Source: a virus. From it: DNA of 64,000 nucleotides. The stretch spans positions 1-64,000 of the IMG/VR virus record IMGVR_UViG_3300025928_000007; one strand, given 5' to 3'. The number at the start of each line of letters is the position of its first letter. Positions within the stretch are counted from its first letter, which is position 1. Below the pieces are notes generated by a model. It saw only the letters and a list, made by a program, of their open reading frames with translations, did not search any database and was not told the DNA's origin. The translations under genes and the position numbers were made by a program. Shown here one piece after another: positions 1,360 to 36,647 of this stretch.

Positions 1360-2124
1360 TTACTGCCAGACCCGGACCCAGTTGACCTCCATGGTGGCCG
1401 GTGCAATCACGTTCGAGCCGTTGGTCGTGTAGTCGATGATCGGGAACATCCTCGCGGACGTGATGCCCGTGGTGATCTTGCCAACCAGCTTGCCGTCGTA
1501 GTAGTAGCGAACGACACCGTTTTCCCAGTCCGAGCCGAATCGGTGCCAGCCCGAGAAGTTACCCGGGGCGCAGTCACCAGGACCGCCAGCGGGTGAGTGG
1601 AAGTGCCAGCAGGCGTCACCATCCAGCCCTTCCATCGTGTCATTCTCACCCGTGGTGGGCCAGGTGCCATTCCCATCACTCCAGAACGCTGGCCAGTTGG
1701 CGACGTGGCTGCCGTTGGCTGGCAGGAAGGCGTCGAACTCGATAGCGCCGAAGGCGTAGTCGAACTTACCAGCGGCCGAGAGGATCGCACCCGTGTAGGG
1801 GAATGTGCCCTTCGGGGTGGTGATGGTCTTGTGGGTCAGTGACAGGTGAGCGTCACCACCGGAGAGTGTGATCGCGTTCGGGCTGTAGCCAGCCTTTTCC
1901 TCGGAGTTGACCGGCCCGGTGTTACCGGTACCGAACCAGCCGGGAGACCACTTGCTGGTGTTGAGCGTGGAGCCACCGAAGCCGTCGCTGAACTTCATCG
2001 TCCAGGAACAGGATGTTGACCAGCTTGGCTGGGGCGTGGAGCAGGTAGCGGCCTGTGCCGATGCCGGTGACAGGATCGCCAGGAATGGGAGCGCCATCAG
2101 CAGCGCGGTAGCGAGCCGCCTCAT
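1360..2124 (-). CDS. secreted GH16-family glycoside hydrolase
   Basis: This 254-residue protein starts with a Sec signal peptide (basic MRR, hydrophobic core to about residue 20, Ala-rich cleavage region near residues 22-26). A single beta-glucanase-like domain fills the rest. The GH16 catalytic signature ExDxxE is present as E160, D162 and E165, in a Trp- and Gly-rich context. By family, GH16 retaining enzymes cut beta-1,3/1,4-glucans or galactans; the substrate here is unknown. The start overlaps the stop of the small gene at 2121-2312 (ATGA), so the two are probably translationally coupled. It sits inside the tRNA array on the same strand. Secretion by a signal peptide, rather than as a virion part, is unusual for a phage glycosidase. 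Confidence 0.85.
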   Translation of the reverse strand: MRRLATALLMALPFLAILSPASAQAATCSTPQPSWSTSCSWTMKFSDGFGGSTLNTSKWSPGWFGTGNTGPVNSEEKAGYSPNAITLSGGDAHLSLTHKTITTPKGTFPYTGAILSAAGKFDYAFGAIEFDAFLPANGSHVANWPAFWSDGNGTWPTTGENDTMEGLDGDACWHFHSPAGGPGDCAPGNFSGWHRFGSDWENGVVRYYYDGKLVGKITTGITSARMFPIIDYTTNGSNVIAPATMEVNWVRVWQ

Positions 2125-2312
2125 GAGCTACCACCCGAATGGCGGCCACAGGTGCCGGTCTTCTCGCCACCCTTGCCGTCCGACTCCACCCGGCGCGACT
2201 GCGCCAGGCCAATCCTCTCGTCCACGTTCTCACCCTTGACGGTCATGAACGGGACACCACAGCCGCGCTCGTCGCAGCGGAGGATGTGGATTTCATTTCG
2301 GCGTGTCCTCAT
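2121..2312 (-). CDS. small zinc-finger-like protein
   Basis: This 63-residue gene has a very strong ribosome site (AAAGGAGG, 5 nt before ATG). It has Cys residues in an RCDExGCG arrangement near residues 13-18 and another Cys near the C-terminus, as in small metal-binding phage proteins. Its TGA overlaps the ATG of the GH16 gene downstream. Function unknown. Confidence 0.6.
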   Translation of the reverse strand: MRTRRNEIHILRCDERGCGVPFMTVKGENVDERIGLAQSRRVESDGKGGEKTGTCGRHSGGSS

Positions 2313-2326
2313 GACGCCTCCTTTCG

Positions 2327-2400
2327 AGCCTCCCACCGGGATCGAACCGGTACCCTCCCGCTTACGAAACGGGCGCTCTGCCGAACTGAGCTTGGGGGGC
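2327..2400 (-). tRNA. tRNA-Thr(CGU)
   Basis: The anticodon arm CCCGT-TTCGTAA-GCGGG gives anticodon CGT. The D-arm GCTC/GAGC, T-arm ACCGG/CCGGT and acceptor GCCCCCC/GGGAGGC are all present. It completes a set of three threonine anticodons (GGU, UGU, CGU). Confidence 0.9.
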
Positions 2401-2472
2401 ATCGCCAGGTGCCTGCACCAGCAGGGAATCGGACCCAGCACCTGGCTGACGAGCGAGCGCTTCACTCGTTTG

Positions 2473-2547
2473 TAGGCGACCCCGGACTTGAACCGGGAAG
2501 CACAAGGTTTTGAACCGAGTAGGTATGCCAATTCCCATCAGCCGCCC
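2473..2547 (-). tRNA. tRNA-Leu(CAA)-like
   Basis: The acceptor GGGCGGC/GTCGCCT (with wobble), the T-arm CCCGG/CCGGG with loop TTCAAGT and the loop TTCAAAA (anticodon CAA) are clear. Two anticodon-stem positions mismatch, and the variable loop is only 5 nt, unlike a normal leucine tRNA. Isotype by anticodon only. Confidence 0.62.
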
Positions 2548-2916
2548 ATGTGGCCAGCTTGACGAAACTAGCCGTTTCGCCGGGCACCCACCCGATTAGG
2601 GCGCTGACCTGCCCAGGACTAGCCGGTCGGGTTTATCGCTTAGCGCTAGTCCATGCTTATGGGAGAGCCGACGATAGACGCCATGGAAGCGCAAGGGCCA
2701 GTTTGGGCTTCCCGTGCCGCGAACGGTAGCTGGGTACCAGATCGCGCCGTTTAGGCTAGCCTGTCCAGAGAGTCGGCTCTCCGCTACCCGCCAGGCTAAG
2801 GCGGTGTCTTCTCAGCTATTAGCTCCGCAGCAGCCGGGTACGGAGGTATTGCAATATGCCCATACCGAGTTGGTCACGGACCCTGACCACTGGTGTCCCA
2901 CGGTTTGGCTGCCATA
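2548..2916. other. gene-free structured spacer in the tRNA array
   Basis: No convincing coding region or tRNA was found here. It holds nested inverted repeats: GGACTAGC/GCTAGTCC (2616-2623, 2645-2652), an 11-bp pair at 2662-2672 and 2772-2782, and TGGTCA/TGACCA (2869-2874, 2882-2887, approximate). It may encode structured RNA or carry remnants of former tRNA genes. Confidence 0.5.
2662..2782. other. 121-nt element bounded by perfect 11-bp inverted repeats
   Basis: GGAGAGCCGAC (2662-2672) and GTCGGCTCTCC (2772-2782) are perfect complements. The interior contains further pairable blocks, including GGAAGC with GCTTCC. The architecture resembles the shorter element at 812-890: long closing stem, several internal hairpins, between tRNA genes. 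No family was recognised. Confidence 0.42.
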
Positions 2917-2991
2917 GTACCCTGCCAGGGACTTGAACCCGTGTTCCCCGGGGTAAGAGCCCGGTGCATAGCCGTACATGCTCGCAAGGTA
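2917..2991 (-). tRNA. tRNA-Lys(CUU)
   Basis: The anticodon arm CCGGG-CTCTTAC-CCCGG gives anticodon CTT. The acceptor TACCTTG/CAGGGTA and a T-loop TTCAAGT are present. Cloverleaf complete by eye. Confidence 0.88.
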
Positions 2992-3072
2992 TGTTGTTGC
3001 CCGTAACGGTGGCCTCGGTCTGCCCCCGCTGCCCCCATGCCCACTGGATGACCGCATCCTCAGCATGGCGAG

Positions 3073-3096
3073 TCCTGGCCGGTAGCGCAGCCAGGA
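3073..3096. other. 7-bp hairpin between tRNAs
   Basis: TCCTGGC (3073-3079) pairs with GCCAGGA (3090-3096) around a 10-nt loop, in the spacer between the Lys and Gly(UCC) tRNAs. Confidence 0.4.
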
Positions 3097-3122
3097 TTGA
3101 TCATAAGGGGTGGCTTACTTCG

Positions 3123-3194
3123 AGCATCCGGCCGGGGTCGAACCGGCATTGACTTGCTTGGAAGGCAAGCGCATATCCGCTCTGCCACGGATGC
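3123..3194 (-). tRNA. tRNA-Gly(UCC)
   Basis: The anticodon arm CTTGC-CTTCCAA-GCAAG gives anticodon TCC. The acceptor GCATCCG/CGGATGC is perfect and the T-loop is TTCGACC. It complements the Gly(GCC) tRNA upstream. Confidence 0.92.
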
Positions 3195-3284
3195 ATGTGC
3201 CGAATGGGATTACTCCCATCGGGCGCTTCACCAGCTTCTCTCAGGGACCGCTCGCGAGTTACGGTACCGGTGCTGCCCTTTGCG

Positions 3285-3356
3285 TGCGACCCGTTGGTAT
3301 CGAACCAACCTCCCCGGCTTTTCAGACCGGCGCTAATCCGTCTCAGCTAGAGTCAC
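3285..3356 (-). tRNA. tRNA-Phe(GAA)
   Basis: The anticodon arm CCGGT-CTGAAAA-GCCGG gives anticodon GAA. The acceptor GTGACTC/GGGTCGC uses several G-U pairs. The T-arm GTTGG/CCAAC and discriminator A are present. Confidence 0.9.
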
Positions 3357-3360
3357 AGGG

Positions 3361-3394
3361 CGATGAGCCCGGTCGTGAGATTCCGGGCTCATCG
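3361..3394. terminator. strong 12-bp hairpin between tRNA blocks
   Basis: CGATGAGCCCGG (3361-3372) and CCGGGCTCATCG (3383-3394) form a perfect GC-rich stem around a 10-nt loop. There is no T-run on either side, so it could be a terminator, a processing signal or an operator. It lies immediately upstream of the Phe tRNA on the minus strand. Confidence 0.45.
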
Positions 3395-3555
3395 CGATAG
3401 TAGGGATTCTTCTTTGGTGCTCTATTCTGCCATCTTTCAGGCGCTAACAAACAGGACTGCGACGTAACGCTTTTGTGCCCAACTTCAGGCCGAGGCGTTC
3501 ATAGCGACCTCCTCTGGGATACCTGTTGTTAGTCCCGGCTTCAATACCGGGCTCG

Positions 3556-3623
3556 TCTGGGAAGCTGGATTCGAACCAGCGCTCTCCTGACTCCAGATCA
3601 GGCGGGATGACCAAGCTTCCCCA
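3556..3623 (-). tRNA. tRNA-Pro(UGG)-like with truncated D-arm
   Basis: The anticodon arm CCTGA-TCTGGAG-TCAGG places TGG at the anticodon, and the T-arm GCTGG/CCAGC has loop TTCGAAT. The whole gene is only about 68 nt because the D-arm region is shortened. U33 is C and the outer acceptor pairs are weak. It is probably a defective or highly divergent tRNA. Confidence 0.5.
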
Positions 3624-3763
3624 TACCCAGATGCGAGACGGTTTGCTTTGTATCCCCTTGCCGTCCCTCAATGGTGTTATGGGTGTTTGACGGTTTCCCA
3701 GCTACCGTGGCGGGCTCAACCGCCATCGCCTACTTCCCAAGGCCAGTGCTCCCAGGAACCACG

Positions 3764-3853
3764 TCCTGGTGAGTGGGACGAACACTCCAAGCACATCCAG
3801 CCTGGTTTTTAGCGAGCTTCCGGGGCTGCTCTAGACCGCTGAGCTATGGAACC
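3764..3853 (-). pseudogene. tRNA-like remnant with D- and T-arms
   Basis: On the minus strand a textbook D-arm (GCTC-AGCGGTCTA-GAGC, 3828-3844) follows a 5' acceptor-like GGTTCCA plus TA. A T-arm-like hairpin (GAGTG-TTCGTCC-CACTC, 3771-3787) lies further on. The expected 3' acceptor partner is missing. The anticodon position is replaced by AGCC/GGCT around a loop of about 21 nt. It could be a decayed tRNA or one carrying an insertion. Confidence 0.4.
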
Positions 3854-3861
3854 TACCTGGT

Positions 3862-3944
3862 AAGCCCCAGAGGGATTCGAACCCCCGTCTTCCCCTGCTT
3901 ACGCGAGCCCAGGCGTAGTCTCAGGAACCCCTTGCGGGCAGACT
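3862..3944 (-). pseudogene. tRNA-like remnant (T-arm and 3' end only)
   Basis: A good T-arm (GGGGG/CCCTC, loop TTCGAAT, 3870-3886) is followed by a 3' acceptor-like TGGGGCT. No matching 5' acceptor is evident, and the presumed anticodon hairpin (CCTG/CAGG) has an oversized loop. The boundary at 3944 is a guess based on TGCCCGC. Possibly a decayed class II tRNA. Confidence 0.35.
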
Positions 3945-3967
3945 AATTACTGTCCTGGTGCTCGCAG

Positions 3968-4042
3968 TCTGGATGGATGGATTTGAACCACCGACCTCGC
4001 GCTTCCGGAGCGCTTACTCTGACCAAACTGAGCTACATCCAG
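3968..4042 (-). tRNA. tRNA-Pro(CGG)
   Basis: The perfect acceptor CTGGATG/CATCCAG, D-arm GCTC/GAGT and T-loop TTCAAAT are present. Counting along the fold places loop TCCGGAA in the anticodon arm, giving anticodon CGG. U33 is replaced by C, and an alternative 9-nt loop would read CCG (Arg), so the isotype is not certain. Confidence 0.72.
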
Positions 4043-4287
4043 ATGTGGGGAAGCTCTCCAATTTAAGCTATGGCCCGCGAACTGTCGCAACCTCGTCAGA
4101 CCAGCGGGTATCGACTCCCGCATCTCTCCCCCGCTTACGCCCACCGGCCGTCACCGCCAGGTGTCTCGGGTATCTCCCGAGGATCATTGGTGGGCAAGTA
4201 TGTGGTCGGGATTTTCCTCCCCGGACTCCTTGTGAGACCCGGCCCTTCCGGCCTTCTTTTTGTGGGGCCGAAGCCCCGTCGAACCAG

Positions 4288-4361
4288 TGGACCACGTCGG
4301 ATTTGAACCGACACCTTCCTGCTTGCAAGGCAGACGCTCTACCAGTTGATGCTAGCGGCCC
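4288..4361 (-). tRNA. tRNA-Ala(UGC)
   Basis: The anticodon loop CTTGCAA with stem CTGC/GCAG gives anticodon TGC. The acceptor GGGCCGC/GTGGTCC pairs fully with G-U wobbles. The T-arm GTCGG/CCGAC and discriminator A are present. Confidence 0.88.
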
Positions 4362-4380
4362 ATGCGGCATGAGGCACACC

Positions 4381-4743
4381 ACAGTGTCGTTGAAGCCGCG
4401 TTATACACGCGGACCCTCAAGCCGTTTGCGACAGTAGCTGCCCTCGCGACCGAAGCCGCCTGGCGTCACCCTGCCGCCGTACCGATCAGGTCCGTTGCCG
4501 GTCTTGGTCGCCCTGGCTACCACCGAAGCGGACTGAAGCTCCAGAACTAGGCCGGTCGGCCTGATCAATGACCTCTATTCACGAATCAAAGCGCTGGCAC
4601 GTACACCGCCTCGCCGCTAGGTTCAGTTCCCCCGTCGCCGGGGGCTTCGGGACCGGCTGCCCAGTCCCTCAGCGGTGGTGCTCTACGAGCTTAGCATCTG
4701 TGGCTGACGGTTGTCAACCCCTGATCTACCAGGCTCGATGCAG
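4381..4743. other. gene-free spacer with hairpins
   Basis: No gene was recognised between the Ala and His tRNAs. Two GC-rich hairpins are visible: AGGCC/GGCCT around GGTC (4549-4562), and CCCCCG/CGGGGG around TCGC (4629-4644). The rest shows nothing supportable. Confidence 0.5.
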
Positions 4744-4818
4744 GGTGTGTGACGGGGTTCGAACCCGCGAGAACCAGGCTCACAACCTGGCCCCTGATGC
4801 CACCCGGGCTCACGCACC
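4744..4818 (-). tRNA. tRNA-His(GUG)
   Basis: The anticodon arm CCAGG-TTGTGAG-CCTGG gives anticodon GTG. The acceptor is extended to eight pairs by an encoded G at -1 opposite C73 (GGTGCGTG/CACACACC), the hallmark of bacterial tRNA-His. One acceptor mismatch. This is the first gene of the array in the direction of transcription. Confidence 0.92.
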
Positions 4819-5069: not shown

Positions 5070-5220
5070 GGATCTGCACCTCCACCTCATCGGGCACGAG
5101 AGTCGTGCCATCGGCTAGCCGGATCACCACGCCCGCGCTGGGGTGGACCTCCGACTCGATGATGGCCCGGCGGACGAAGTCCGTCTCCTCAGCCTCGACG
5201 GTCTGGATGATGATCCGCAT
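5041..5220 (-). CDS. small acidic hypothetical protein
   Basis: This 59-residue frame begins MRIIIQTVEAEE and ends GDTPG. Its ATG overlaps the stop of the secreted-protein gene (TGATG), and its 3' end overlaps the next small gene by 29 nt. These are typical of a coupled phage operon. No family was recognised. Confidence 0.6.
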   Translation of the reverse strand: MRIIIQTVEAEETDFVRRAIIESEVHPSAGVVIRLADGTTLVPDEVEVQIHGGPGDTPG

Positions 5221-5840
5221 CAGCCCACGTCACATGCTGAGGAACTGATCGTCCTCGACCATGCGCATGGCGGCAGGTTCCCGCCGTTGTCCGTCGCCAG
5301 GGAGTCCATCGCGGCGGCGAAGGCGTCATAGCTGGCCTGCTGCTTGCTGGTCATCGCGTGGACGTTGCCGTTGGTCTCGCACTGGTTCGGGTTCTGGTCA
5401 TAGCCCGGGTTGATGACGGTGCAGAAGTCCTGGCCATGACCGATGCCAACCCAGAACGCCTGGAAGTTCTGCGGTGGGTTGCTGGTCGCGTTCGGCACGA
5501 TGGTGGCGGCCTCTACCCAGTCAAGGCCGTCAGCCGGGTGCTTGTCCCAGTTATATGAGTTGAGGTTGTGCGACCAGTACAGCGCACCACCCGACACCGA
5601 CTGGTTGATGCACTCGTAGGCCACATGGGTGGACAACTGCACGCCGTGGTAGTCGAAACAGCCCTTGAGGCTGGGCAGGGAGTTCGCCTGTGCCCGGGTC
5701 AGGGTCTGGCTGGCCATCGCCTGCTGGACTGTCTGGCCATGTGCCGATGGTGCGAACATGGACTGGGCTGATGCGGCGATGACCATGATAGCCGCGAGGG
5801 CAAGAAGGAACTGTAGCGGGTGCCTGACTGCCTTGTGCAT
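5220..5840 (-). CDS. secreted protein of unknown function
   Basis: This 206-residue protein has an N-terminal signal peptide: basic residues, a hydrophobic stretch around residues 10-25, then an Ala-rich cleavage region ending near AHGQ. The mature part has six or so cysteines, which could form disulfides outside the cell, and is rich in Asn, Gln and aromatics. The gene lies 3 nt after the membrane-protein gene at 5844-6542. It is one of several exported products in this window. No family was recognised. Confidence 0.65.
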   Translation of the reverse strand: MHKAVRHPLQFLLALAAIMVIAASAQSMFAPSAHGQTVQQAMASQTLTRAQANSLPSLKGCFDYHGVQLSTHVAYECINQSVSGGALYWSHNLNSYNWDKHPADGLDWVEAATIVPNATSNPPQNFQAFWVGIGHGQDFCTVINPGYDQNPNQCETNGNVHAMTSKQQASYDAFAAAMDSLATDNGGNLPPCAWSRTISSSACDVG

Positions 5841-5843
5841 TGT

Positions 5844-6542
5844 CTACTCCGTGGATCTCTCGCTGATGCCAAATGGCTTGGACTGCATCGTGGCCATTAT
5901 ACCCTTGGCCGCTTCGAACACCCTCAGGCGATCCTCTCGCAACTCCGTCTCGCGTGGGCCGGGCGGGTTTCCCGCACGGCGGGCTGGGCTATGGGTATAG
6001 CCTTCAATCTGCCTATCGAGGCTGGCGAGTCTCCCGAGCAGTTTCTCGATGCGCTGCTGGAGGACGACCTCGGCGGCCCTGGCGAGCATTTCCCGGTTTG
6101 CGGCACGGACCATACCGATGCCCTCGACGTAATACGAGACGCGCGGATCACCAAAGGTGCGGATTTCTTCGATGCGTGGTGGGTCGCCCAGGATCATAGG
6201 TGGGACCTGAGCCTGTGCGAGATAGCGCTTGCGGATTTCGTTGATTGTCTGCTGAGTCGCCGGGGCAGGAACGGTGATGATCTGCGGGCGGTCCTCGGGG
6301 AACGCCATATAGTGCTCCTGCTGTGCCTGGTCCTCGGCCTTAAGGATCAGGTCCAGGACCGGGACACCGGCCCAGTTGTCCGCGTAGCGGTATAGCTGTG
6401 CGTGCGGGTTGCCGGGTGGTGTGACCACGCGAACCGACATCGCCCGAATCGCCTGGCGAGCCCGGACCACCCTCAGCCAGGCCCAGCCGGTGGCGTACAG
6501 GAAGATGATCAGAGGGATGAAAATCCGGAAGTATTCGACCAT
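5844..6542 (-). CDS. membrane-anchored hypothetical protein
   Basis: This 232-residue protein has one strong transmembrane segment at residues 6-23 followed by a basic patch. The C-terminal half is charged and probably helical (IEKLLGRLASLDRQIEG), suggesting a coiled coil. It is the first gene of the leftward operon reading out of the AT-rich control region. Its ribosome site is GGTGAGG just before the ATG. No family was recognised. Confidence 0.6.
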   Translation of the reverse strand: MVEYFRIFIPLIIFLYATGWAWLRVVRARQAIRAMSVRVVTPPGNPHAQLYRYADNWAGVPVLDLILKAEDQAQQEHYMAFPEDRPQIITVPAPATQQTINEIRKRYLAQAQVPPMILGDPPRIEEIRTFGDPRVSYYVEGIGMVRAANREMLARAAEVVLQQRIEKLLGRLASLDRQIEGYTHSPARRAGNPPGPRETELREDRLRVFEAAKGIMATMQSKPFGISERSTE

Positions 6543-6900: not shown

Positions 6901-7056
6901 ATGGCCAAGGACCCCAAGCCCACGACGCTGACCAACGTCCACGTCAACGTCACCAACCTCCGCAACACGAAGGGGTCGGGCAAGGCGACCCAGATCCAGC
7001 GATCCGGTGCCACCGGCACGGGCGAGGTAACACCAAGGAAGGCGAGGCGCGCATGA
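6901..7056 (+). CDS. small basic protein
   Basis: This 51-residue protein is Thr/Lys/Asn-rich and basic at the C-terminus. It starts after GAGAGGCGAGCCACC and its TGA overlaps the ATG of the lectin-like gene (ATGA). It is the first gene of the rightward operon. Function unknown. Confidence 0.6.
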   Translation: MAKDPKPTTLTNVHVNVTNLRNTKGSGKATQIQRSGATGTGEVTPRKARRA

Positions 7057-8468
7057 GGAAGATCGTTCTAACCATTCTGATGGGCGTGGGACTGCTCACT
7101 GGAATCGGCATGCAGGCGGCACCGGCATTTGCGGGCACCGCCGCACACCACGCACCGCACGCCACAACCCGCGTGGCTCCGCCACTCCCGGCCGCTCAGA
7201 CGGCCTCGTGCACACAGGGGCACCTCGACTACGGCGTCGGCAGTGTGACCATCAGTGCCGACTGGGAACCACCGGGTTCCTGTGGCTGGCATGTCCGCAC
7301 GTGCTCGCTGGACTCGACCAACACCTCCCGGTGTGGCGGGTTCGTCAAGGCGACCGAACTGGTCACCACCAGCCCGCAGGCGAATGGCACCATGGCCGAT
7401 GGATGGCTTCAGCAGTACCTCGACAGCACACACCCGCAGCGCTGGTGCTGGGATGTGCTGGGGCAGGTATCCACCTCATGGCACAAGTGCAGCGGCAAGG
7501 GGTTCGGCCCTCCGGTGCACACCACCGCCGCTGGCATGACGCTCCAGCCAGCCGGGCACACGACCGTCGATGGCAAGCGCGTGTCCTGGTTCCACATCTG
7601 CCTGACGCACTCCAACGGAAGTCACTGCATCACCGCCAATGGCGTCGGCCGTGACCTGTCACTCGCCGCTGGCAGCGGCAACAAGTGGCAGGCCATTCCT
7701 GAGCGCTCAGACGGCAGAATCGCCTGGCAGAATGGCAGTGGCAACTGCATGACGGTTGACGGTTCCACTGGTGGCGTGCAGGCTGCGGGCAGCGGGTGTG
7801 CGGACGTTACGTCGGAGGAGTGGTTTGTGGGCGGGAGTGGCAATCTCACCTTCAACAACGTCGGCACCCAGAACTACATGGGCACCAATGGTGACGCCGC
7901 CGGGAAGCTGGTGTACGCCCACCCGGCACACACCGGGTTCTTCCGTGGGTGGACAACCTTCTCCTGCTGCCTGAAGACCACGGCGGCACACACCACCGGC
8001 AAGGCAGCGGGTATCACACTCGATGCCTTCACCGCACGCCGTGTGCCTCAGTCGGGCCACCTGAAGGAGTCCTTCGGCGCGGGTTACTACGTCGGCACGC
8101 CATCGCTCAACTACGGCTCAGGCGTCAGCGAGGAGTTCGGCGGACGGCAGATGACCTTCTTCCCCGATGGCAACTACTGCGCACCGGACGGGAACTGCTA
8201 CACGCGCGGAGTGCTCGACTTCACCAGCGGCGCGAACAACTGCGCACAGGCCAGCGGGACCTCAGTCCTGGTAGCCGAGTGCTCTGGCGTTCCCGGCATC
8301 GAGTGGGCCGAGAAGATCGTCAGCGGCCATATCCACTTCATCAACGACAACGAGTCCTCGGCTGCGGGTGCGGACATCTTCATGGGTGGCCTACAATGCG
8401 GCTGCCCGCTGACGATGGGCCGGGCGGGTGTGCCGTCAGGCGTCCTGCAAGCCTGGGACTTCCTGTAA
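7053..8468 (+). CDS. secreted ricin-B-lectin-like protein
   Basis: This 471-residue protein has a signal peptide (MRK, hydrophobic residues 4-20, cleavage near AFA-GT). The mature region is Gly/Ser/Cys-rich. A segment near residues 224-265 contains GNCMTVDG, QAAGSGC and EEW, resembling one repeat of the ricin-type beta-trefoil, which usually binds carbohydrate. The remainder shows many paired cysteines consistent with export. It is coupled to the 51-residue gene upstream. The lectin reading is an inference from one repeat; overall function unknown. Confidence 0.6.
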   Translation: MRKIVLTILMGVGLLTGIGMQAAPAFAGTAAHHAPHATTRVAPPLPAAQTASCTQGHLDYGVGSVTISADWEPPGSCGWHVRTCSLDSTNTSRCGGFVKATELVTTSPQANGTMADGWLQQYLDSTHPQRWCWDVLGQVSTSWHKCSGKGFGPPVHTTAAGMTLQPAGHTTVDGKRVSWFHICLTHSNGSHCITANGVGRDLSLAAGSGNKWQAIPERSDGRIAWQNGSGNCMTVDGSTGGVQAAGSGCADVTSEEWFVGGSGNLTFNNVGTQNYMGTNGDAAGKLVYAHPAHTGFFRGWTTFSCCLKTTAAHTTGKAAGITLDAFTARRVPQSGHLKESFGAGYYVGTPSLNYGSGVSEEFGGRQMTFFPDGNYCAPDGNCYTRGVLDFTSGANNCAQASGTSVLVAECSGVPGIEWAEKIVSGHIHFINDNESSAAGADIFMGGLQCGCPLTMGRAGVPSGVLQAWDFL

Positions 8469-9417: not shown

Positions 9418-11499
9418 GTGAAGCAGAGCAAGGTCAGCGTCACCGCCATCAGCAACATGACTGGCGCGAAGGTGATGGGCTTCGACCCCCATGGGACCGC
9501 CCACATCTTGTCGATCCTGAACAACATGTACTCCGACCCCGGCCTGGCCGTCGTGCGGGAGTACGCCGCCAACGCACGCGACTCGCATGTGGAGGCTGGC
9601 AACACCGACCCGATCCTGATCACCAGCCCGTCCTACCTGAACCCGATCCTCGTGGTGCAGGACTTCGGCACCGGCCTCAGTCCCGATGAGGTCGAGAACG
9701 TCTTTGCCGTCTACGGCACATCCACCAAGCGTGGTGTCGAAGGCCAGATCGGCTACTTCGGCATCGGCTCGAAGTCCGCCTTCACCATCGGCTCCCAGTT
9801 CACCGTGACCGCCGTCAAGGACGGCGTCATGTCCGTCGCGCTGTTCGCGCTGGACAACGATGGGAACCCGACCGTGAACATCGTCAGCGAGACCGGCACC
9901 GACGAGCCGGATGGTGTCAAGGTCGAGGTAGCGGTCAGTGATGTGGACAACGTCACGAACGCCATCGAGCGCCTGTTCGCCACCTGGCCACAGGGCTCCG
10001 TCCTGGTGGATGGTGTCGAGCCAACCTCGATCTGGGACGATGTGGAGGAACTGGCCGAGGGCGTGCACCTGGGCTGGCGGCCTGCCGCCCACACCAGCGA
10101 TGGCTTCGTGGTCATCATGGGCGGCGTGGCCTACTCCCTGCCGACCTCCGTGGTCGAGACCCTGGACTACCGCCAGAAGACCATTGTCAACAATGTGCGC
10201 GCCAGCTACGCCAAGGTGTACCTGACCGTGCCCCTCGGCGCGGTGGACCTCACCCCGTCGCGTGAAGACCTGCGCGTCACCCCGATGACCACGGCCACGC
10301 TGAATGACATGGTGGACCGTTTCCACAACGCCCTGACACCGTGGATCACGAAGCAGATTTCGGACGCACCGACCCTGATCGCGGCAATCATCGCGGCCGA
10401 CGACCTGCGCCGGAAGCTGCCGAACCGGATGTTGTCGGCCGGGCAGGGTCCGACCTGGCATGGCAAGCCGCTGCCGTCGAGCACGGTGAAGATTCCGGCC
10501 GAATGGTTCCACCTGGCCCGGCGTGGCTACTCATCACCAATGAACGCCCGCCGTGAGAGGACTGACTTCGAACTAGTCGCATCCCACACGATGAGGCAGG
10601 CGCTGTTCGTGACCGGCGTTCCGGAGCGCCGGGTCCGTACCGTCCAGCTAGCGGCGAAGGAGTACATGCTGGCTCACAAGGACAAGGACGACCCGGAGTA
10701 CACGAACCGGGTTGTGGCCCTGACCCAGCCCGATGCCGCCTATGCCCGGGAATGGTTCACCCTGTCGGACCCGCTGATCCGGACGATGGACTATGACACC
10801 TTCGCGAAGTTCCGCCCGCTGCGTGCACCTGGCTCCCACCGTGCCGAGATCAAGTATGAGGTGCACGGCTCGAACCTGCGCCAGGCGATGACGGTGCCGG
10901 AAATCAACGCACACACCGGCAACATCTACTACCTGACCCACTACGAGCGCCCGAACTACACACCGGGCAGCCCGTTCGTGGCGCACGTGGTCGGTAACGG
11001 GCTGCTGATCGTCCTGTCCTCCACCCAGAAGGTCGAGCCCCTGCTCAAGCGGGTGCCCCGCGCGGCCAGCCTGGTGGTCCAGGCACGGGCCGAGGCTGAC
11101 CGCATCCTGAACAGTGTCACCCCGGCTGACCTGGATGCGCTGGACGCGGCTAGCTTCCTGCGCAGCATCGACCAGGGCGTCTGGAACTTCCTGGCGGCGA
11201 ACGAGACGGACATCACCCACCAGGCCGTGCTGGATGCGCTGGACATGTTCACCCGCGCTCGCGTGCTGGAGCGTGGCGACCAGTCCCGCGTGGGACTCAT
11301 CCAGGCCGCCCTGCGCATCACGCAGCGTAACGCCTCCACCCTCGGCACGTCCACGCTCAACCGGGCCAGCATCGATGTAGTCCTCAACGGCCTGCCCCTG
11401 CTGAGCCGGTACTTCGACCGCGACTGGCTGCGCAGCCCGCTGGGCAACCAGCACGTCATCGCCTACGTCAACATGGTCGGCCAGTCGGCCACCGACTAG
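9418..11499 (+). CDS. rIIA: rIIA-like GHKL ATPase
   Basis: This 693-residue protein has an N-terminal Bergerat (GHKL) ATP-binding fold. The N-box is VREYAANARD at residues 46-55, DFGTGL near residues 82-87 is the G1 motif, and GYFGIGSKSAF near 112-122 is the lid region. This arrangement and length match T4 rIIA homologues, membrane-associated proteins that affect lysis timing and overcome Rex-type exclusion. The rIIB homologue lies immediately downstream. GTG start preceded by AAGGAG. The role in this host is inferred. Confidence 0.82.
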   Translation: MKQSKVSVTAISNMTGAKVMGFDPHGTAHILSILNNMYSDPGLAVVREYAANARDSHVEAGNTDPILITSPSYLNPILVVQDFGTGLSPDEVENVFAVYGTSTKRGVEGQIGYFGIGSKSAFTIGSQFTVTAVKDGVMSVALFALDNDGNPTVNIVSETGTDEPDGVKVEVAVSDVDNVTNAIERLFATWPQGSVLVDGVEPTSIWDDVEELAEGVHLGWRPAAHTSDGFVVIMGGVAYSLPTSVVETLDYRQKTIVNNVRASYAKVYLTVPLGAVDLTPSREDLRVTPMTTATLNDMVDRFHNALTPWITKQISDAPTLIAAIIAADDLRRKLPNRMLSAGQGPTWHGKPLPSSTVKIPAEWFHLARRGYSSPMNARRERTDFELVASHTMRQALFVTGVPERRVRTVQLAAKEYMLAHKDKDDPEYTNRVVALTQPDAAYAREWFTLSDPLIRTMDYDTFAKFRPLRAPGSHRAEIKYEVHGSNLRQAMTVPEINAHTGNIYYLTHYERPNYTPGSPFVAHVVGNGLLIVLSSTQKVEPLLKRVPRAASLVVQARAEADRILNSVTPADLDALDAASFLRSIDQGVWNFLAANETDITHQAVLDALDMFTRARVLERGDQSRVGLIQAALRITQRNASTLGTSTLNRASIDVVLNGLPLLSRYFDRDWLRSPLGNQHVIAYVNMVGQSATD

Positions 11500-11517
11500 A
11501 CTTCTGTCAGACCCCCG

Positions 11518-11533
11518 TGGTACTGTGGTACCA
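11518..11533. promoter_or_regulatory. palindrome upstream of rIIB-like gene
   Basis: TGGTAC and GTACCA flank TGTG, 23 nt before the rIIB start. A related palindrome occurs at 34832-34849. It could be an operator for a dimeric regulator. Confidence 0.45.
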
Positions 11534-11555
11534 AACAACAGGAAGGATCGAGGAC

Positions 11556-12461
11556 ATGCTTCAGATCATGTTCAGCTTCACCCAGGCCGAGAACGGCTCC
11601 CAGACCCTCGTACTGCTGGGCTCGCTGGGACCGCGCCTGATCCCCGAGTCGCACGCCAACTTCAACGTCATCAAGGACGCCCTGCTTCAGGTCAGTGGGC
11701 TCACTCACCTCACCGAGGCCGAGGTCTACGAACTGGCCGATGCGGCGACCACGGTCACCGCAACCCTCCAGCGCCTGTCGGAGCGTGTGACCATCCGTGG
11801 CAACACGATCTTCTTCGATGGTGACGCGATGAACTCGCGCCTGACCCGTCACATCATCGCGATGGTCCGCGAGGGCGACTCGAACTACGAGGGCTTCGTC
11901 CAGTTCCTGGAGAACATCCAGTTGAACCCGTCCGAGGCCAGCCGGGTGGCGCTGTTCGAGTTCCTTGAGCGGAACGACCTGGTGATCACCTCCGATGGCC
12001 AGTTCATCGGCTACAAGGGTGTCGGTGCTGACGGTAAGTCCATCACGGCGGGCCGCGAGGACGTGACCGTGACCCTGGCGGACGGCACCGTCGAGGTCCA
12101 CAAGGGCCACATCCCGTACCCGGTCGGTGCGACCGTCGAAATGGCCCGCAGCCAGGTGGACCCCGACCGGGCCAGCGCCTGCTCCGTGGGTCTCCATGTC
12201 GGTACCTTCGACTATTCGGGCGGCTGGGCGACCGGCAACGGCAAGCGCCTGACCGTCGCGGTGAACCCCCGCGATGTGGTGGCCGTGCCGTCCGACTCCG
12301 GTGGCCAGAAGCTCCGCGCGCACCGGCTGACGGTGCTGGAGGTCAACGAGACCGGCCAGTACACCGGTACCAGCTACGCCTTCGAGCCCGATGAGGGTAC
12401 GGAGGACGACTGGGACACCGAGGTCGAGTGGGACTCCGACAACGAGTACGGCTCGTTCTGA
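11556..12461 (+). CDS. rIIB: rIIB-like protein
   Basis: This 301-residue protein follows rIIA directly. Its central region (LENIQLNPSEASRVALFEFL, then DGQFIGYKGV) and a later block with ACSVGLHVG are typical of T4 rIIB-like proteins. The C-terminus is strongly acidic. ATG at 11556 is chosen because GGAAGGATCGAGGAC precedes it; an in-frame upstream start at 11517 lacks such a site. It is expected to act together with rIIA. Confidence 0.82.
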   Translation: MLQIMFSFTQAENGSQTLVLLGSLGPRLIPESHANFNVIKDALLQVSGLTHLTEAEVYELADAATTVTATLQRLSERVTIRGNTIFFDGDAMNSRLTRHIIAMVREGDSNYEGFVQFLENIQLNPSEASRVALFEFLERNDLVITSDGQFIGYKGVGADGKSITAGREDVTVTLADGTVEVHKGHIPYPVGATVEMARSQVDPDRASACSVGLHVGTFDYSGGWATGNGKRLTVAVNPRDVVAVPSDSGGQKLRAHRLTVLEVNETGQYTGTSYAFEPDEGTEDDWDTEVEWDSDNEYGSF

Positions 12462-14380: not shown

Positions 14381-14833
14381 ATGGAGGACTTCGAGGACGT
14401 GACGCCCACCCGGGCGATCCGTGAAGGATTCCGCTGGTTCCCCGCCGTCGTCATCCTGGGCGTCCTGGCTAGCGCCGTCATCGCGGTGCTGGTGATCGGC
14501 TGGCTGTTCCTGGGCTGGTTCACCGGCCAGCAGGCCGCGAACCGGGACTACTCCATCACGGTCCACAGCCAGGGCTATCAGACCACGCTGATCCAGACGA
14601 TGACCAGCAGGCTCCAGGACATCAGCGACATCGGCGTGACACGATCCGGCGAACCGGCCAACTCCCCGATGCAGGCACCCCAGCGCGCACAGCAGTTGTC
14701 CGCGCTCCGGACGTTCTGCACCGACGCCGCACAACTCACCAGCGGCAACCCCGCCGCATCCCAGTTGTACCCCATCGCGGCAGCCAACTGTCTCGCTGGG
14801 ACCGTCATCCCCAACCCACCGCTCGTGAAGTAG
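14381..14833 (+). CDS. membrane protein
   Basis: This 150-residue protein has one long hydrophobic segment at about residues 21-48 after a charged N-terminus. The C-terminal part is polar and contains two or three cysteines, likely facing outside. It sits in one transcription unit with the lipoprotein gene 13 nt downstream. A joint role at the cell surface is inferred. Confidence 0.6.
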   Translation: MEDFEDVTPTRAIREGFRWFPAVVILGVLASAVIAVLVIGWLFLGWFTGQQAANRDYSITVHSQGYQTTLIQTMTSRLQDISDIGVTRSGEPANSPMQAPQRAQQLSALRTFCTDAAQLTSGNPAASQLYPIAAANCLAGTVIPNPPLVK

Positions 14834-14846: not shown

Positions 14847-15533
14847 ATGAGGTACGTCAACAGAAGGTCAATCAGCGCAGGTCTCGGTGTCCTGGCCGCC
14901 GTTGCGTTCATCGCCGGATGTAACAGCGGAAACAACGACACCACCGCCGAGAACGCCCAGGCCACCGCCGGGATCAGGCAGATCCTCCACAATCAGCCCG
15001 TGCCCGTGTTCCCGAGGTCGGACATGCGCGCATCGCTGACAACCGTGGAGGCCGTGCAGGCGCTGGGCGGCCCTACTACGTCCTTCATGATGCCGATGGG
15101 CTCAGGCGGCACGGGGGTTGACCCCATCGATGCCTGCGCATCCGAGGGTTTCCCGATCCCGTTCGGGACCGAACTGTCGAACCCGACCCAGATCAGCAAC
15201 ATCGACACCGCGACCAACAAGGATCTGGGCGGCACCGGTAACGTGATCGACCAGATGGACCCGAACGGGGTCTATGCCGGTGGCAACTCATCCGGCACCT
15301 ACGTCATGTGCGTCACCGCCAGCGGCAAGGCATCCCCGCGCTACTGGGAAGGCCCCGTCGAGACCGTGCCAGGCTCCGCCAACTGGAACACGACGACCCA
15401 CTCCGTGGTCACCTTCGGCCCGCAGAATCTGCCGATCTGCACCCTTGAGGGCAGCGGCAAGGGCGCTCACTACAACTGCACGCTGCCGCCTGGCGCGAAG
15501 CAGAACCGTCACGTTCCCACCATCCACAGCTAG
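14847..15533 (+). CDS. predicted lipoprotein
   Basis: This 228-residue protein has a signal sequence (RR pair, hydrophobic residues 11-23) ending in a lipobox-like AFIAGC, with lipidated Cys at residue 25. The mature region is Thr/Ser/Asn/Gly-rich with several cysteines. Phage lipoproteins often change the host surface and can exclude superinfecting phages; that role is only a suggestion here. No family was recognised. Confidence 0.65.
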   Translation: MRYVNRRSISAGLGVLAAVAFIAGCNSGNNDTTAENAQATAGIRQILHNQPVPVFPRSDMRASLTTVEAVQALGGPTTSFMMPMGSGGTGVDPIDACASEGFPIPFGTELSNPTQISNIDTATNKDLGGTGNVIDQMDPNGVYAGGNSSGTYVMCVTASGKASPRYWEGPVETVPGSANWNTTTHSVVTFGPQNLPICTLEGSGKGAHYNCTLPPGAKQNRHVPTIHS

Positions 15534-22369: not shown

Positions 22370-22783
22370 ATGAAGACGATCCGCCCTGAGTCGGAGTTCT
22401 CGATACTGGTCGAGTTCCCCGCCAGCCCGAGCGGGGTGGTGCCATCCCACGGGATCAAGCTATGGCGAGTGCAGCCGGATGGCACACTGACGGCGATCAC
22501 CACCTGTGGCGGCCTCACCCTCTATGCCAGCGCGGAGTCCGTTGTCTGGGCGGAGCTAGAGCTATATGTGGACGCCTGGGGCCAGCCGATATTCGACGGC
22601 CGACCACTCATAGGCGCGGACCATCAGGTCATCACCGGAATCTTCTCCGCCGACGTAGCGGGGATACGATCCACCACCAGCTATTCACGCGGTTATGCGA
22701 GCGCCCTGATAGATACACATCAGCGGGTGCCCACCACACCGTTCAAGGACACACCGGACAAGGTAATCGAGGCAAAGTCATGA
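22370..22783 (+). CDS. hypothetical protein
   Basis: This 137-residue beta-rich protein contains repeated strand-like segments (SILVEFPASP, LWRVQPDGTL, LYASAESVVW). Its stop overlaps the vWA gene start by ATGA, suggesting they are made together. Confidence 0.55.
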   Translation: MKTIRPESEFSILVEFPASPSGVVPSHGIKLWRVQPDGTLTAITTCGGLTLYASAESVVWAELELYVDAWGQPIFDGRPLIGADHQVITGIFSADVAGIRSTTSYSRGYASALIDTHQRVPTTPFKDTPDKVIEAKS

Positions 22784-23811
22784 GGCAGGACGAGTACACC
22801 CCCAACTACATCAACCACATCGGCTTCGTGGTTGACATGTCACAGTCGATGCTGAAGCACATGGCAGGGCTGGTCGCCGCCGTGGATGCGGAGACGGCCC
22901 GGCTCGCCCGGCGCTCGAAGGAACTTGACCAGGAGACACGGATCACGGTCTACCTGTTCAACTACACGACCACATGCGTGTTCTACGACAAGGACGCGCT
23001 ACGGCTCCCGTCCATCCGGGGCCACTACCACCCAGCCGGTCGCACCGCACTGCGTGACGCCATGGGCCGCGCCATCAACGACATGAAGCAGACCGCCACG
23101 CTCTATGGTGACCATGCCTTCCTGCTCTATGTCTGGACCGATGGCTGGGAGAACGAGTCCCACCTGGTATCTCAGCTTGGCCTGCGCAGCCAGATTCAGG
23201 CACTGCCGGATAACTGGACCATCGCCGGTCTTGGCCCGAATGCCAACTCCGTTCATGAAATGAAGGGTCTCGGAATCCCCGCCGGAAACATTTCGGTCTG
23301 GAACACTCAGGCCGATGATGGTGCGGAGGGCGCGGTCGGCCAGATGTCCACCGCTACGGACAACTTCATGCTCGGCCGGGCGAAGGGCGTGCGTGGCACC
23401 CGGGACCTGTTCAGCACCGGCCCGGAGGCCGTGAACGCCGCCACCATCCGGGGTGCGGGTCTCGGCAGGCTGGCCCGGAGCAGCTACTACGTCTGGGACG
23501 TGCTCGCGGCTAGCGAGATCCGCCCGTTCGTGGAGGCTCATGGTCATACGTACTTCATCGGAAGTTCCTACTACCAGCTAACCCGGCGCGTGAACATCCA
23601 GAAGCGCAAGAAGATCGCTATCCGTGACAAGCGCACGGGCGATGTCTATTCCGGCCAGGAGGCACGCAGCCTACTGGGGCTGCCGGATATGGACGTGACC
23701 GTTACCCCGTCCGACAACCCGGACTACGAAATCTTCGTCCAGTCCACGTCCGTGAACCGCAAGCTGGTGCCGAACACACGGCTGCTCTACATCAAGCAGG
23801 GATCGCTGTGA
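22780..23811 (+). CDS. von Willebrand factor A-domain protein
   Basis: This 343-residue protein begins with a vWA domain. The MIDAS DxSxS motif is D19-M-S21-Q-S23 in FVVDMSQSM, followed by GRTALRDAMG (conserved Thr) and YVWTDGWENES (Asp). vWA domains bind partners through a metal ion. The C-terminal part has a basic stretch (NIQKRKKIAIRDKR) and unknown fold. No MoxR-type ATPase neighbour was seen. A role in a host-interaction or assembly complex is possible. Confidence 0.72.
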   Translation: MRQDEYTPNYINHIGFVVDMSQSMLKHMAGLVAAVDAETARLARRSKELDQETRITVYLFNYTTTCVFYDKDALRLPSIRGHYHPAGRTALRDAMGRAINDMKQTATLYGDHAFLLYVWTDGWENESHLVSQLGLRSQIQALPDNWTIAGLGPNANSVHEMKGLGIPAGNISVWNTQADDGAEGAVGQMSTATDNFMLGRAKGVRGTRDLFSTGPEAVNAATIRGAGLGRLARSSYYVWDVLAASEIRPFVEAHGHTYFIGSSYYQLTRRVNIQKRKKIAIRDKRTGDVYSGQEARSLLGLPDMDVTVTPSDNPDYEIFVQSTSVNRKLVPNTRLLYIKQGSL

Positions 23812-32733: not shown

Positions 32734-32734
32734 C

Positions 32735-33436: not shown

Positions 33437-33445
33437 GAGGCAACT

Positions 33446-34615
33446 ATGAAGCAGCTAGCACCCAAGCTCTTTAGCTGGGCATCGATCCTGGACGACCAGA
33501 CCCGAATCCAGGCCGAGCAGCTATCACGCATGCCGTTCATCGACCCCTATGTGGTTCTCGAAGGTGACGCGCACTTCGGAAAGGGTGCGAGCGTTGGCAC
33601 CGTGATCCCGACCAAGGGAGCGATCATCCCGGCTGCGGTTGGTGTTGACATCGGATGCGGCATGATCGCGCACCGGACCCAGTTCTATGGTCACGACCTG
33701 CGTGGCATGGACCTGACAGCATTGCGTGTCACCGTGGAGGACGCGATCCCGTCCTCAGCGGGGCGCTACAACACACACCTGACCACTAGCGCACGCCGCC
33801 GTGTCGAGGAACTTGAGGCTATGCCGGGTGCGCAGGCGGCATACGAGCTAGCGCAGAACTGGCCACTTCAGCTTGGCTCGCTGGGCTCGGGTAACCACTT
33901 CATCGAGGTAACCCTTGACGACCAGGACCGGGTATGGCTGTTCCTGCACTCCGGTTCTCGTGGCGTCGGTAACAAGCTGGCCATGAAGCACATTGGCATC
34001 GCCAAGATGATGATGCGGCATGATGACATCCACCTGGTCAACCCGGACCTGTCCTACCTGACCGAGGGCACGGGCGAGTTCGATGACTACATCACCGATC
34101 TGCTCTGGGCGCAGCACTTCGCACTGCTGAACCGCCAGGAAATGATGCAGCGCCTGACCTATGAGTTTGGGCTGTGGATCGGTGAGCCAGTCCATGTCAG
34201 CCATGCGATTCAGTGCCACCACAACTACACAGAGCGTGTCATCGACGTGGTCAATGGCGGCATGACCTGGCTGTCCCGCAAGGGTGCCATCAACGCGGAG
34301 CGCGGGGTGCTTGGCCTGATCCCGGGCTCCATGGGCGTGGCTAGCTATGTCGTGGAAGGTCTTGGCCATGCGGAAGGCTTGAACTCAGCGCCGCATGGTG
34401 CGGGACGCCTGTACTCTCGCGGCGCGGCGAAGCGCACCTTCACCATGGATGACATGGCGAAGCAGATGGTGGGTGTCGAGTACAAGCACGACAAGTCGCT
34501 CCTGGACGAGATTCCGGGTGCGTACAAGCCGATCACACAGGTGATGGAGGACGCATCAGAGGTGGTGCGCCCGTTGTACGAGCTTCACCCGCTGGTGAAC
34601 GTCAAGGGGATGTGA
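33446..34615 (+). CDS. rtcB: RtcB-type RNA ligase
   Basis: This 389-residue protein shows the RtcB core. GVDIGCGM (about residues 66-73) gives the metal-binding Asp and Cys, LGSGNHFIEV and LHSGSRGVGN follow, and PHGAGR near residues 315-320 holds the guanylated His. RtcB joins 2',3'-cyclic phosphate and 5'-OH RNA ends with GTP and Mn2+. In a phage with a large tRNA array it probably repairs tRNAs cut by host anticodon nucleases. The start is preceded by GAGAGGCAACT. Confidence 0.9.
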   Translation: MKQLAPKLFSWASILDDQTRIQAEQLSRMPFIDPYVVLEGDAHFGKGASVGTVIPTKGAIIPAAVGVDIGCGMIAHRTQFYGHDLRGMDLTALRVTVEDAIPSSAGRYNTHLTTSARRRVEELEAMPGAQAAYELAQNWPLQLGSLGSGNHFIEVTLDDQDRVWLFLHSGSRGVGNKLAMKHIGIAKMMMRHDDIHLVNPDLSYLTEGTGEFDDYITDLLWAQHFALLNRQEMMQRLTYEFGLWIGEPVHVSHAIQCHHNYTERVIDVVNGGMTWLSRKGAINAERGVLGLIPGSMGVASYVVEGLGHAEGLNSAPHGAGRLYSRGAAKRTFTMDDMAKQMVGVEYKHDKSLLDEIPGAYKPITQVMEDASEVVRPLYELHPLVNVKGM

Positions 34616-34616
34616 C

Positions 34617-34868: not shown

Positions 34869-35125
34869 TTATCCTGGCCCTGCTCGCGCAGGTAGCACTA
34901 CTGGTGCTTCAGTACGGGGCACATGTCATCAACGTGAGTTTGTGGATCGTGCTTCTCCCGGCGATCCTGCTGTCAGTGCTGTGGGTATTCGTGGTTGTAC
35001 TGCTCGGGCACATGGTGTCCGTAGATACCATCAACCCCGTCAGCCCGTCACTCAGTTCCTTCGGGCACCACCGTGAGCGTGAGGCCCGAATCGCCGCGAT
35101 GCGCCGCAGGACGACCTTGCGATGA
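34865..35125 (+). CDS. small membrane protein, two TM segments
   Basis: This 86-residue protein has hydrophobic stretches at about residues 2-20 and 25-50, then a basic cytoplasmic tail. AAGGAGGTACGGC precedes the ATG. It heads a short run of membrane proteins. Confidence 0.58.
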   Translation: MIILALLAQVALLVLQYGAHVINVSLWIVLLPAILLSVLWVFVVVLLGHMVSVDTINPVSPSLSSFGHHREREARIAAMRRRTTLR

Positions 35126-35247
35126 TCTCGTTCATCGCGCAACTGATCACCTTCGGGGTACTTACCCCGTTGGCCATCCTGGCAAGGACACCAAGAGCGG
35201 GAGAAGAATCCGGGGTACGTGATGAAGTGCGACCATGGAACGAATGA
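35122..35247 (+). CDS. very small membrane-associated protein
   Basis: This 41-residue frame has a hydrophobic first half (residues 1-21) and a charged tail. ATGA overlap with the gene before and 26-nt overlap with the next frame. Function unknown. Confidence 0.45.
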   Translation: MISFIAQLITFGVLTPLAILARTPRAGEESGVRDEVRPWNE

Positions 35248-35467
35248 CCGCGTAATCGTTCCAGGCGACCAGCAGCCGGATGGGGTGCAGTTCCCGCGTT
35301 GTGGCGGGTGCTACCACCGCACCGGCTATGCTGGTTCACAGCCGACCTCCACACGGAGGATCGCGATAAGGCATCCGTCCTACGTCTGGACGGAGATCAA
35401 GGGCCGATGGAGAGCGAGGCAGATGATGAAGGAAGCCCGTGAACGGGAAGGAACATGGCCGCTATGA
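35222..35467 (+). CDS. small Cys-containing protein
   Basis: This 81-residue protein has Cys residues in KCDHG and FPRCGGC, a possible zinc site, then a basic helical end. GTG at 35219 is an alternative start. Confidence 0.52.
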   Translation: MKCDHGTNDRVIVPGDQQPDGVQFPRCGGCYHRTGYAGSQPTSTRRIAIRHPSYVWTEIKGRWRARQMMKEAREREGTWPL

Positions 35468-35643
35468 TCATCGAGGTAATAGCCACGATCCTGATCCTCG
35501 TCATCGTGGTTCCTATCGCGGTGCATATGGTGATAGTTCACCACCGCGAGCGGCATCGTGCCCGCATGGTCGCCCGGTTCATGGCCAGCTACTCACCGCC
35601 ACGGCCCGGGTCCGAGCCGATCTACGGCCAGGATGATGACTAG
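35455..35643 (+). CDS. small single-TM protein
   Basis: This 62-residue protein has one transmembrane helix at residues 4-27 and a basic His/Arg patch after it. AAGGAAC precedes the ATG. Function unknown. Confidence 0.55.
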   Translation: MAAMIIEVIATILILVIVVPIAVHMVIVHHRERHRARMVARFMASYSPPRPGSEPIYGQDDD

Positions 35644-35657
35644 ACAAGGAGGAAGTT

Positions 35658-36647
35658 TTGAAGTTCCGACGACTACTGCTACTGCTGCCAGTGCTCGGAT
35701 TCCTGTGGGCGTTCATCCCGCAGGGAGCTAACGCCGGATCAGTACCGAGCCAGGACTTCTGGATCGTCTGCCCTTACACGGGGATCACCGCGACGGTGGA
35801 CCCCATCGTGGACCCGGGCTCAACAACCACGGCCCACTTCCATGACTTCTATGGGAACACGACGATCAACGAGAACTCCACACCGGCCTCACTGCAAGCT
35901 GCGGGGGCTGGTGCCACATCGTGTACCACCGCGACGGACACGGCGGCCTACTGGGCTCCGGAGCTTCTGTTGCAGCCGAACGAGACCCAGACCTATGGCC
36001 CACCGGGCGCTCCATGCACCACGCTGGCGAGCGGGTTGCAGGCATGCCACTATGCCTATATCCGTGCCTACTACAGCAATGGCTCAGTGCCGGTGTCCAA
36101 CCTCCCGTTCGGGATGTCCACCGTGGGTGGCAACTCAGACGCGACCGGAGTGCAGCCGATGTCTCAGGTCACATTCTCCTGCGGCAGTGGCACACCGTTC
36201 GAGACACACCCCTACAGTTGTGCGGGCCACATCAACCTGGCGACCGGCAATGATGGCATCGTCGCCCGCGCGATCATGCCCCGATGCTGGAACGGCCAGG
36301 ACGCCACCAACCGGGCGAACTTCCACTACCCGCCGTGTGCGGCCAGCGATCAGGTGCTGCCGGTGGTCAATGTCCGGTTCCACACCGGGATCGTCTCACC
36401 ATGCCCCGGCTCGACATGTGCGGCTGGCAACACCCAGACGCCCGCATTCGGGTTCCGGAATGCTGATGACTCGCTGAAGCCGTGGTACCAGTTCCATGCC
36501 GACTTCATGAACGGCTGGCAGTATGGCGACAGTGGCACGAGCGACAACATGGGTGGCGTGGATGACCTGGTGCAGGACTGCCTGATCAGCGCGCTTGCCT
36601 GCCCGCCGAACCCGCACACCACGCCGCACAACAACATGCCGACATGA
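35658..36647 (+). CDS. secreted DUF1996-like protein
   Basis: This 329-residue protein starts at TTG after AGGAGGAAGT. It has a signal peptide (KFRR, hydrophobic residues 6-21, ANA cleavage region). The mature part has the DUF1996 pattern: HFHDFYGN with H60 and H62, a central Tyr/Trp-rich region, MPRCW and a late DFMNGW, plus several cysteines. DUF1996 proteins occur in fungi and actinobacteria and have no known activity. It is the last large gene before transcription converges. Confidence 0.75.
   Translation: MKFRRLLLLLPVLGFLWAFIPQGANAGSVPSQDFWIVCPYTGITATVDPIVDPGSTTTAHFHDFYGNTTINENSTPASLQAAGAGATSCTTATDTAAYWAPELLLQPNETQTYGPPGAPCTTLASGLQACHYAYIRAYYSNGSVPVSNLPFGMSTVGGNSDATGVQPMSQVTFSCGSGTPFETHPYSCAGHINLATGNDGIVARAIMPRCWNGQDATNRANFHYPPCAASDQVLPVVNVRFHTGIVSPCPGSTCAAGNTQTPAFGFRNADDSLKPWYQFHADFMNGWQYGDSGTSDNMGGVDDLVQDCLISALACPPNPHTTPHNNMPT

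Follow-up and report, generated by a model that had tools for sequence, protein, structure and literature searches.

A recurrent transmembrane protein/lipoprotein gene pair among five exported proteins of a siphovirus-like phage and its possible role in superinfection exclusion

The first 64,000 bases of the 69,113-base linear IMG/VR virus record IMGVR_UViG_3300025928_000007, in the following called the window, belong to a tailed, siphovirus-like phage. Five predicted products of this stretch carry export signals (Table 1), among them a lipoprotein (14847-15533) whose gene is the second of a pair. The first gene of this pair (14381-14833) encodes a small transmembrane (TM) protein and was missing from the gene list of an earlier, sequence-only reading of the window. 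Our analysis points to five separate acquisitions and to a lipoprotein/TM pair that would act as a complex at the outer face of the cytoplasmic membrane, most likely in superinfection exclusion. We give this reading nearly an even chance.

A tblastn search with the lipoprotein led to Vibrio phages of two families, which carry a Sec signal in place of the lipobox, while two viral contigs with 36-41% identity to the window protein have lipoboxes. The profile search revealed 47 viral loci with guanine plus cytosine (GC) contents of 27-73% on contigs of up to 328 kb. Altogether 21 Vibrio phages contain the lipoprotein family. Neighboring genes were counted at 48 loci by clustering all open reading frames (ORFs) within about 6 kb; L083 and L084 are near-copies of each other, and the gene calls of short loci are approximate. 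A TM gene was located directly upstream on the same strand in 45 of these 48 loci. The TM partners fell into two clusters of 34 and 11 members. Profile comparison joined these into one family (probability 96.8, E-value 2.8e-10), and both have a stalk with an S-Y/F motif. No other sense-strand neighbor family of the lipoprotein occurred in more than 4 of the 48 loci.

The lipobox seen in the window protein (FIAGC) was present in 42 of the 48 family members. Four members (L090, L099, AG74 and PG11) showed a clear Sec signal without the cysteine and two were ambiguous. Thus, export is conserved among the relatives of the window lipoprotein. A rule drawn from five sequences, according to which a lipobox indicates a Gram-positive host and a Sec signal a Gram-negative host, was dropped after all 48 had been compared; lipoboxes are common at all GC contents. 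Across very different hosts the family retains invariant residues, and its conserved domain is about 150 residues long. It corresponds to PHROG 24725, which the Vibrio members match with E-values of 1e-10 to 2e-12 and the window protein weakly (E-value 0.0025); the PHROG entry contains neither a function nor the pairing with a TM gene. Pfam and PDB gave no matches for the lipoprotein, and a fold search with a model of medium confidence found no match in the PDB or in the viral library. In chromosomes the family is rare (1 of 297 actinobacterial genomes).

Both genes are also present in the Synechococcus phage S-SRM01 and the Tenacibaculum phage Gundel_1. The pair can be tested at once because it is carried by these cultured phages as well as by the Vibrio phages AG74 (gp163-164) and PG11. 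Three observations were made at these loci. In S-SRM01 (L102:5423-6635) a third gene follows the pair; its product, annotated as a membrane protease subunit, is a TM protein that, by our reading of its sequence, resembles the C-terminal part of SPFH/prohibitin proteins. In Gundel_1 a TM gene of 127 amino acids (L103:5579-5962) directly upstream of the lipoprotein gene is absent from the public annotation. For PG11 (L052:1920-2462) the signal peptide is lost with the annotated start at 1974, and translation probably begins at 1920.

Most of the recognized neighbors of the pair encode DNA helicases, replication proteins or methyltransferases rather than lysis proteins, and the window copy is part of the replication arm on the plus strand, 22 kb away from the lysis genes. 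The product of 14381-14833 would be small and span the membrane once, at its N-terminus, with a stalk that faces outward. The lipoprotein, which has a soluble exported form in a few phages, would be expected to dock on this stalk, and the two proteins would assemble into a complex at the outer face of the cytoplasmic membrane. The pair, presumably made early or in the middle of infection, may block the entry of a second phage's genome. Superinfection exclusion is favored because the lipoproteins Ltp of phage TP-J34 (PMC3952083) and Llp of T5 (PMC9586334) act in this process, because no particular envelope type is needed for it and because it would be useful early. Like Ltp and Llp, the members of the family with lipobox and export signal would be phage-encoded lipoproteins displayed by the host envelope. 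Unlike Ltp and Llp, the pair has a near-constant upstream TM partner and is distributed over many host phyla.

Several points weigh against superinfection exclusion. Neither in sequence nor in fold does the lipoprotein resemble Ltp, Llp or any protein of solved structure, and terminase or portal genes are found near the pair at some loci. Superinfection exclusion lipoproteins are usually described as solo actors without a TM partner. Moreover, exclusion proteins tend toward variability, while this family keeps its invariant residues in phages of very different hosts.

Two functions in lysis were weighed against exclusion. The pair might be a regulator of lysis timing of the antiholin or lysis-inhibition type, which links sensing at the outer face to the holin as described for T4 RI. 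In favor of such a regulator, an exported protein adjoins a TM protein, T4 RI carries a cleavable signal peptide (PMC8385771), and rIIA/rIIB are located 2 kb upstream of the pair in the window and also near the pair in L099. However, the rII link is not general, because L099 is the one other locus with rII genes near the pair and rIIA was found in 2 of 20 records. On this rarity beside the other loci rIIA/rIIB were rejected as a general functional partner of the pair, and we consider lysis timing unlikely. The other function is that of a spanin-like unit, in which a TM i-spanin with an outer coiled stalk and a lipoprotein o-spanin fuse the membranes at lysis. Gene order and topology agree with Rz/Rz1, where likewise a TM protein with an outer stalk is followed by a lipoprotein gene. 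Furthermore, two high-GC TM partners weakly match an Rz-like PHROG (E-values 0.006 and 0.085), and the lipoproteins of mid- and low-GC phages mostly have a +2 residue other than Asp. In contrast to Rz/Rz1, the module lies outside lysis cassettes; AG74 comes nearest, with the pair about 5 kb downstream of holin and peptidase. Anchoring in an outer membrane is not possible for the four members that have a plain Sec signal, and the module occurs in high-GC phages, which probably infect actinobacteria lacking an outer membrane of the Gram-negative type. The large conserved exported domain is a further difference from Rz/Rz1. Since the pair sits among replication genes, spanin-type lysis was argued against, and we regard it as improbable. 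Consequently, superinfection exclusion is ranked first as the most likely function and lysis timing second, whereas the spanin comes third because of the module's distance from lysis genes and because some members lack a lipid anchor. A block of superinfection, which the sequence-only reading had considered for the exported proteins as a set, is our best guess for the lipoprotein pair only. In general terms, we tentatively propose, at somewhat below an even chance, that TM stalk protein and lipoprotein form a previously unnamed module that is widely distributed as an accessory among tailed phages of Gram-positive and Gram-negative hosts and may serve as a general envelope device (superinfection exclusion or lysis control) independent of the envelope type.

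Table 1. Features of the window relevant to the exported proteins, with positions in the 64,000-base stretch.
Feature	Position	Strand	Details	Basis
Exported GH16 (laminarinase-like) enzyme	1360-2124	-	254 amino acids; inside tRNA array, tRNAs on both sides	PDB laminarinases, active site
Exported protein	5220-5840	-	206 amino acids; 6 Cys in mature part	Sequence and export rule
Protein with N-terminal membrane segment	5844-6542	-	directly upstream of 5220-5840, gap of 3 bp	
Exported protein	7053-8468	+	471 amino acids	Sequence and export rule
Single-TM partner	14381-14833	+	150 amino acids; N-in predicted, TM about 22-45; first gene of pair	
Exported lipoprotein	14847-15533	+	228 amino acids; lipobox FIAGC, Cys25; second gene of pair	PHROG 24725-like
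Exported DUF1996 protein	35658-36647	+	329 amino acids; TTG start, AAGGAGGAAG upstream, signal MKFRRLLLLLPVLGFLWAFIPQGANA	PF09362
Intrinsic terminator	37305-37338	-	15 pairs; closes late operon before DUF1996 gene	
Holin-like TM protein	37386-37679	-	end of late operon	Sequence only
Probable endolysin or tail-end hydrolase	37692-38615	-	Rv2525c/DUF1906-like glycoside hydrolase, weak	PF08924, E-value 0.024
Terminase, portal, head protease/capsid, minor tail, tape measure and tail-tip genes	62.6 to 37.4 kb	-		
rIIA, rIIB, DNA polymerase, ribonucleotide reductase, RtcB	9.4 to 34.6 kb	+		
Thirteen tRNAs	0.2 to 4.8 kb (214-4817)			

Export signals were assigned by one self-made rule, not by SignalP, which was applied to every ORF of at least 60 amino acids on both strands of the 69-kb record (n = 396). 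All five named ORFs passed the rule at the positions given before. Their N-termini show K/R, a hydrophobic core and then either an AXA-type site or a lipobox. Altogether 21 of the 396 ORFs passed, namely the five named ones, 14 frames whose coding score is negative and two starts that are internal to the tape-measure and portal genes; the rule is passed by approximately 4% of non-gene frames. A sixth genuine gene start with an export signal was not found among the 396 ORFs under this rule. The list of five is complete under the rule because the other 16 passes are negative-score frames or internal starts. The signals of the DUF1996 protein and the lipoprotein are kept among their homologues (12 and 48 loci, respectively), whereas those of the GH16 protein, 5220-5840 and 7053-8468 have a single-sequence basis. 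These sequence features give good support for the export of all five proteins from the infected cell.

An exported set of this size had been called unusual for a phage, which did not hold against a baseline of annotated coding sequences. The same rule was passed by 12 of 49 coding sequences in a 30-kb stretch of AG74 (about 8 of these 12 seem cleavable by eye), by 2 of 48 in phiC31 and by 4 of 96 in a 49-kb stretch of BillNye. Annotated coding sequences were used since gene-caller counts are unreliable on short or small-gene loci. The ratio of the window, 5 of about 50 genes, is high beside the actinophages phiC31 and BillNye. Signal-peptide genes are unusually dense in the AG74 stretch (L104, 85948-116508).

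The DUF1996 label of 35658-36647 was confirmed by a match to PF09362 (E-value 1.3e-23, 84.7 bits versus a cut-off of 27) and by both motifs of the family, the head motif DPIxxP at residues 48-53 and the tail motif HxDxxxGW at residues 280-287. These conserved motifs are shared with DUF1996 proteins of fungi (Beauveria VLP1-3) and of actinobacteria. The window protein has a signal peptide; for the 14 fungal proteins studied in PMC4738358 none was predicted. Among phages the signal peptide is kept in the homologues of all 12 viral loci examined, at identities down to 27%. The closest phage copies, both with signal peptides, are those of G302 (57% identity) and G303 (54%), and the three closest phage copies have an extra QTY..GxPC..CHY stretch in common. 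Otherwise G302 shares almost nothing with the window, and G303 shares only tail, head and few other genes at low identity. The DUF1996 gene of G303 is part of the late strand, flanked by tail genes and a holin-like gene; the G302 copy is found about 3.5 kb past an endolysin-like gene. A lysozyme-like nature was considered and rejected; a weak match to a PDB lysozyme chain (E-value 0.003) disappeared on profile search. The structure prediction (predicted local distance difference test score, pLDDT, of 53) was too poor for a fold search. The DUF1996 product would be a phage-borne envelope protein, encoded beside or in the lysis cassette of the nearest phages.

The GH16 family assignment of 1360-2124 was likewise confirmed, in this case via catalytic motif and homologues. 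PDB laminarinases (e.g., 4dfs and 3azx) matched the product with an E-value of 2e-11 and share with it the domain and the catalytic ExDxxE. The motif E160-x-D162-x-x-E165 is intact, and E160, D162 and E165 are invariant across the alignment. The Pfam profiles PF00722 and PF03935 remained below their cut-offs (PF00722 17.3 versus 22 bits). The nearest host relative is a Streptacidiphilus protein (54% identity); in contrast to host relatives with their extra N-terminal domain, the window enzyme consists of a single domain. Exported relatives are encoded on the viral contigs L038 and L040, and the L040 copy lies between two tRNAs like that of the window. The relatives on the viral contigs L034-L037 have no signals, and those of L035 and L037 are fused to other N-terminal parts; one GH16 lineage in viral contigs (L034-L040) thus occurs with and without signal peptide. 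The tree did not resolve the phage GH16 proteins as one clade. The window protein would be a beta-glucanase of the actinobacterial host type that was captured into the tRNA array.

For 5220-5840 and 7053-8468 no relatives were found in phages, viral contigs or 198 actinobacterial genomes. A lectin-like label had been given to 7053-8468. It was rejected: Pfam gave no hits, PF14200 was negative at an E-value of 10 with working controls, ricin-type beta-trefoil repeats were not detected by profile, and the two halves of the protein are dissimilar. Both proteins appear to be orphans, separate from the other exported genes. Together with the membrane-segment gene 5844-6542, 5220-5840 constitutes a second gene pair of membrane protein and exported protein in the window, without relatives.

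Two explanations join some or all of the exported proteins. A coordinated, glycan-active secretome that acts by modifying the matrix or neighboring cells would agree with five exported proteins, with the intact active site of the GH16 enzyme and with signal-peptide GH16 proteins on L038 and L040. However, GH16 is the only recognizably glycan-active family in the set, relatives of the enzyme on L034-L037 are without signals, and other phages can equal the window in exported proteins. The five genes are found at four places on both strands without a common operon. Only the DUF1996 gene of the exported set is shared with G302 and G303, and the relatives of the lipoprotein share only its TM partner. 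We conclude on separate acquisitions because there is neither co-transcription nor co-inheritance and each gene has its own history. Hence, the export part of the secretome claim stood, its coordination and its glycan activity did not, and such a secretome is very unlikely. Alternatively, GH16 and DUF1996 may be late envelope or virion factors for entry or release through glycan layers, exported via Sec, with the other proteins unrelated to them. The position of DUF1996 beside the holin-like gene in the late strand of G303 and near lysis genes in the window and G302 is consistent with this, as are the virion-like GH16 fusions of L035 and L037. In the window, however, both genes are outside the late operon, GH16 in the tRNA array and DUF1996 behind the 15-pair terminator (37338-37305) that precedes its gene. 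The statement that none of the exported genes is part of the structural operon was therefore right for the window, and G303 differs in this respect. Cleavable signals are also rare on virion proteins, and we regard late envelope or virion factors as rather unlikely. Separate acquisitions, with the lipoprotein/TM pair as an envelope complex, remain the preferred reading.

The GC content of the window is approximately 62% along its whole length. An actinobacterium is the likely host, since the C-terminal domain of the tape measure matches Streptomyces phages and the GH16 enzyme is closest to proteins of Streptacidiphilus and its order. The rIIA/rIIB genes (9418-12461) occur here in a high-GC phage; they are also annotated in Streptomyces phage BillNye. 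The RtcB tRNA ligase (33446-34615) co-occurs with the 13 tRNA genes, which suggests repair of cleaved tRNAs. A tail-region protein of 2288 amino acids (40570-47436) has no Pfam or PHROG matches, and a protein of 449 amino acids (22462-23811) belongs to phrog_26613, a PHROG without assigned function. Outside the window, a membrane-anchored HerA/VirB4-like ATPase is encoded at L002:7570-9387 (66570-68387 of the record) with 33% identity to its counterpart in G303.

These results suggest that exported proteins are an ordinary, under-annotated component of phage genomes. The idea of a single secretome is replaced by a testable two-gene envelope module, which is common to Vibrio, Synechococcus, Tenacibaculum and probably actinobacterial phages. 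Should it act in exclusion in all these kinds of host, it would be a device of this type with a very wide distribution and a natural place for studying the competition between phages.

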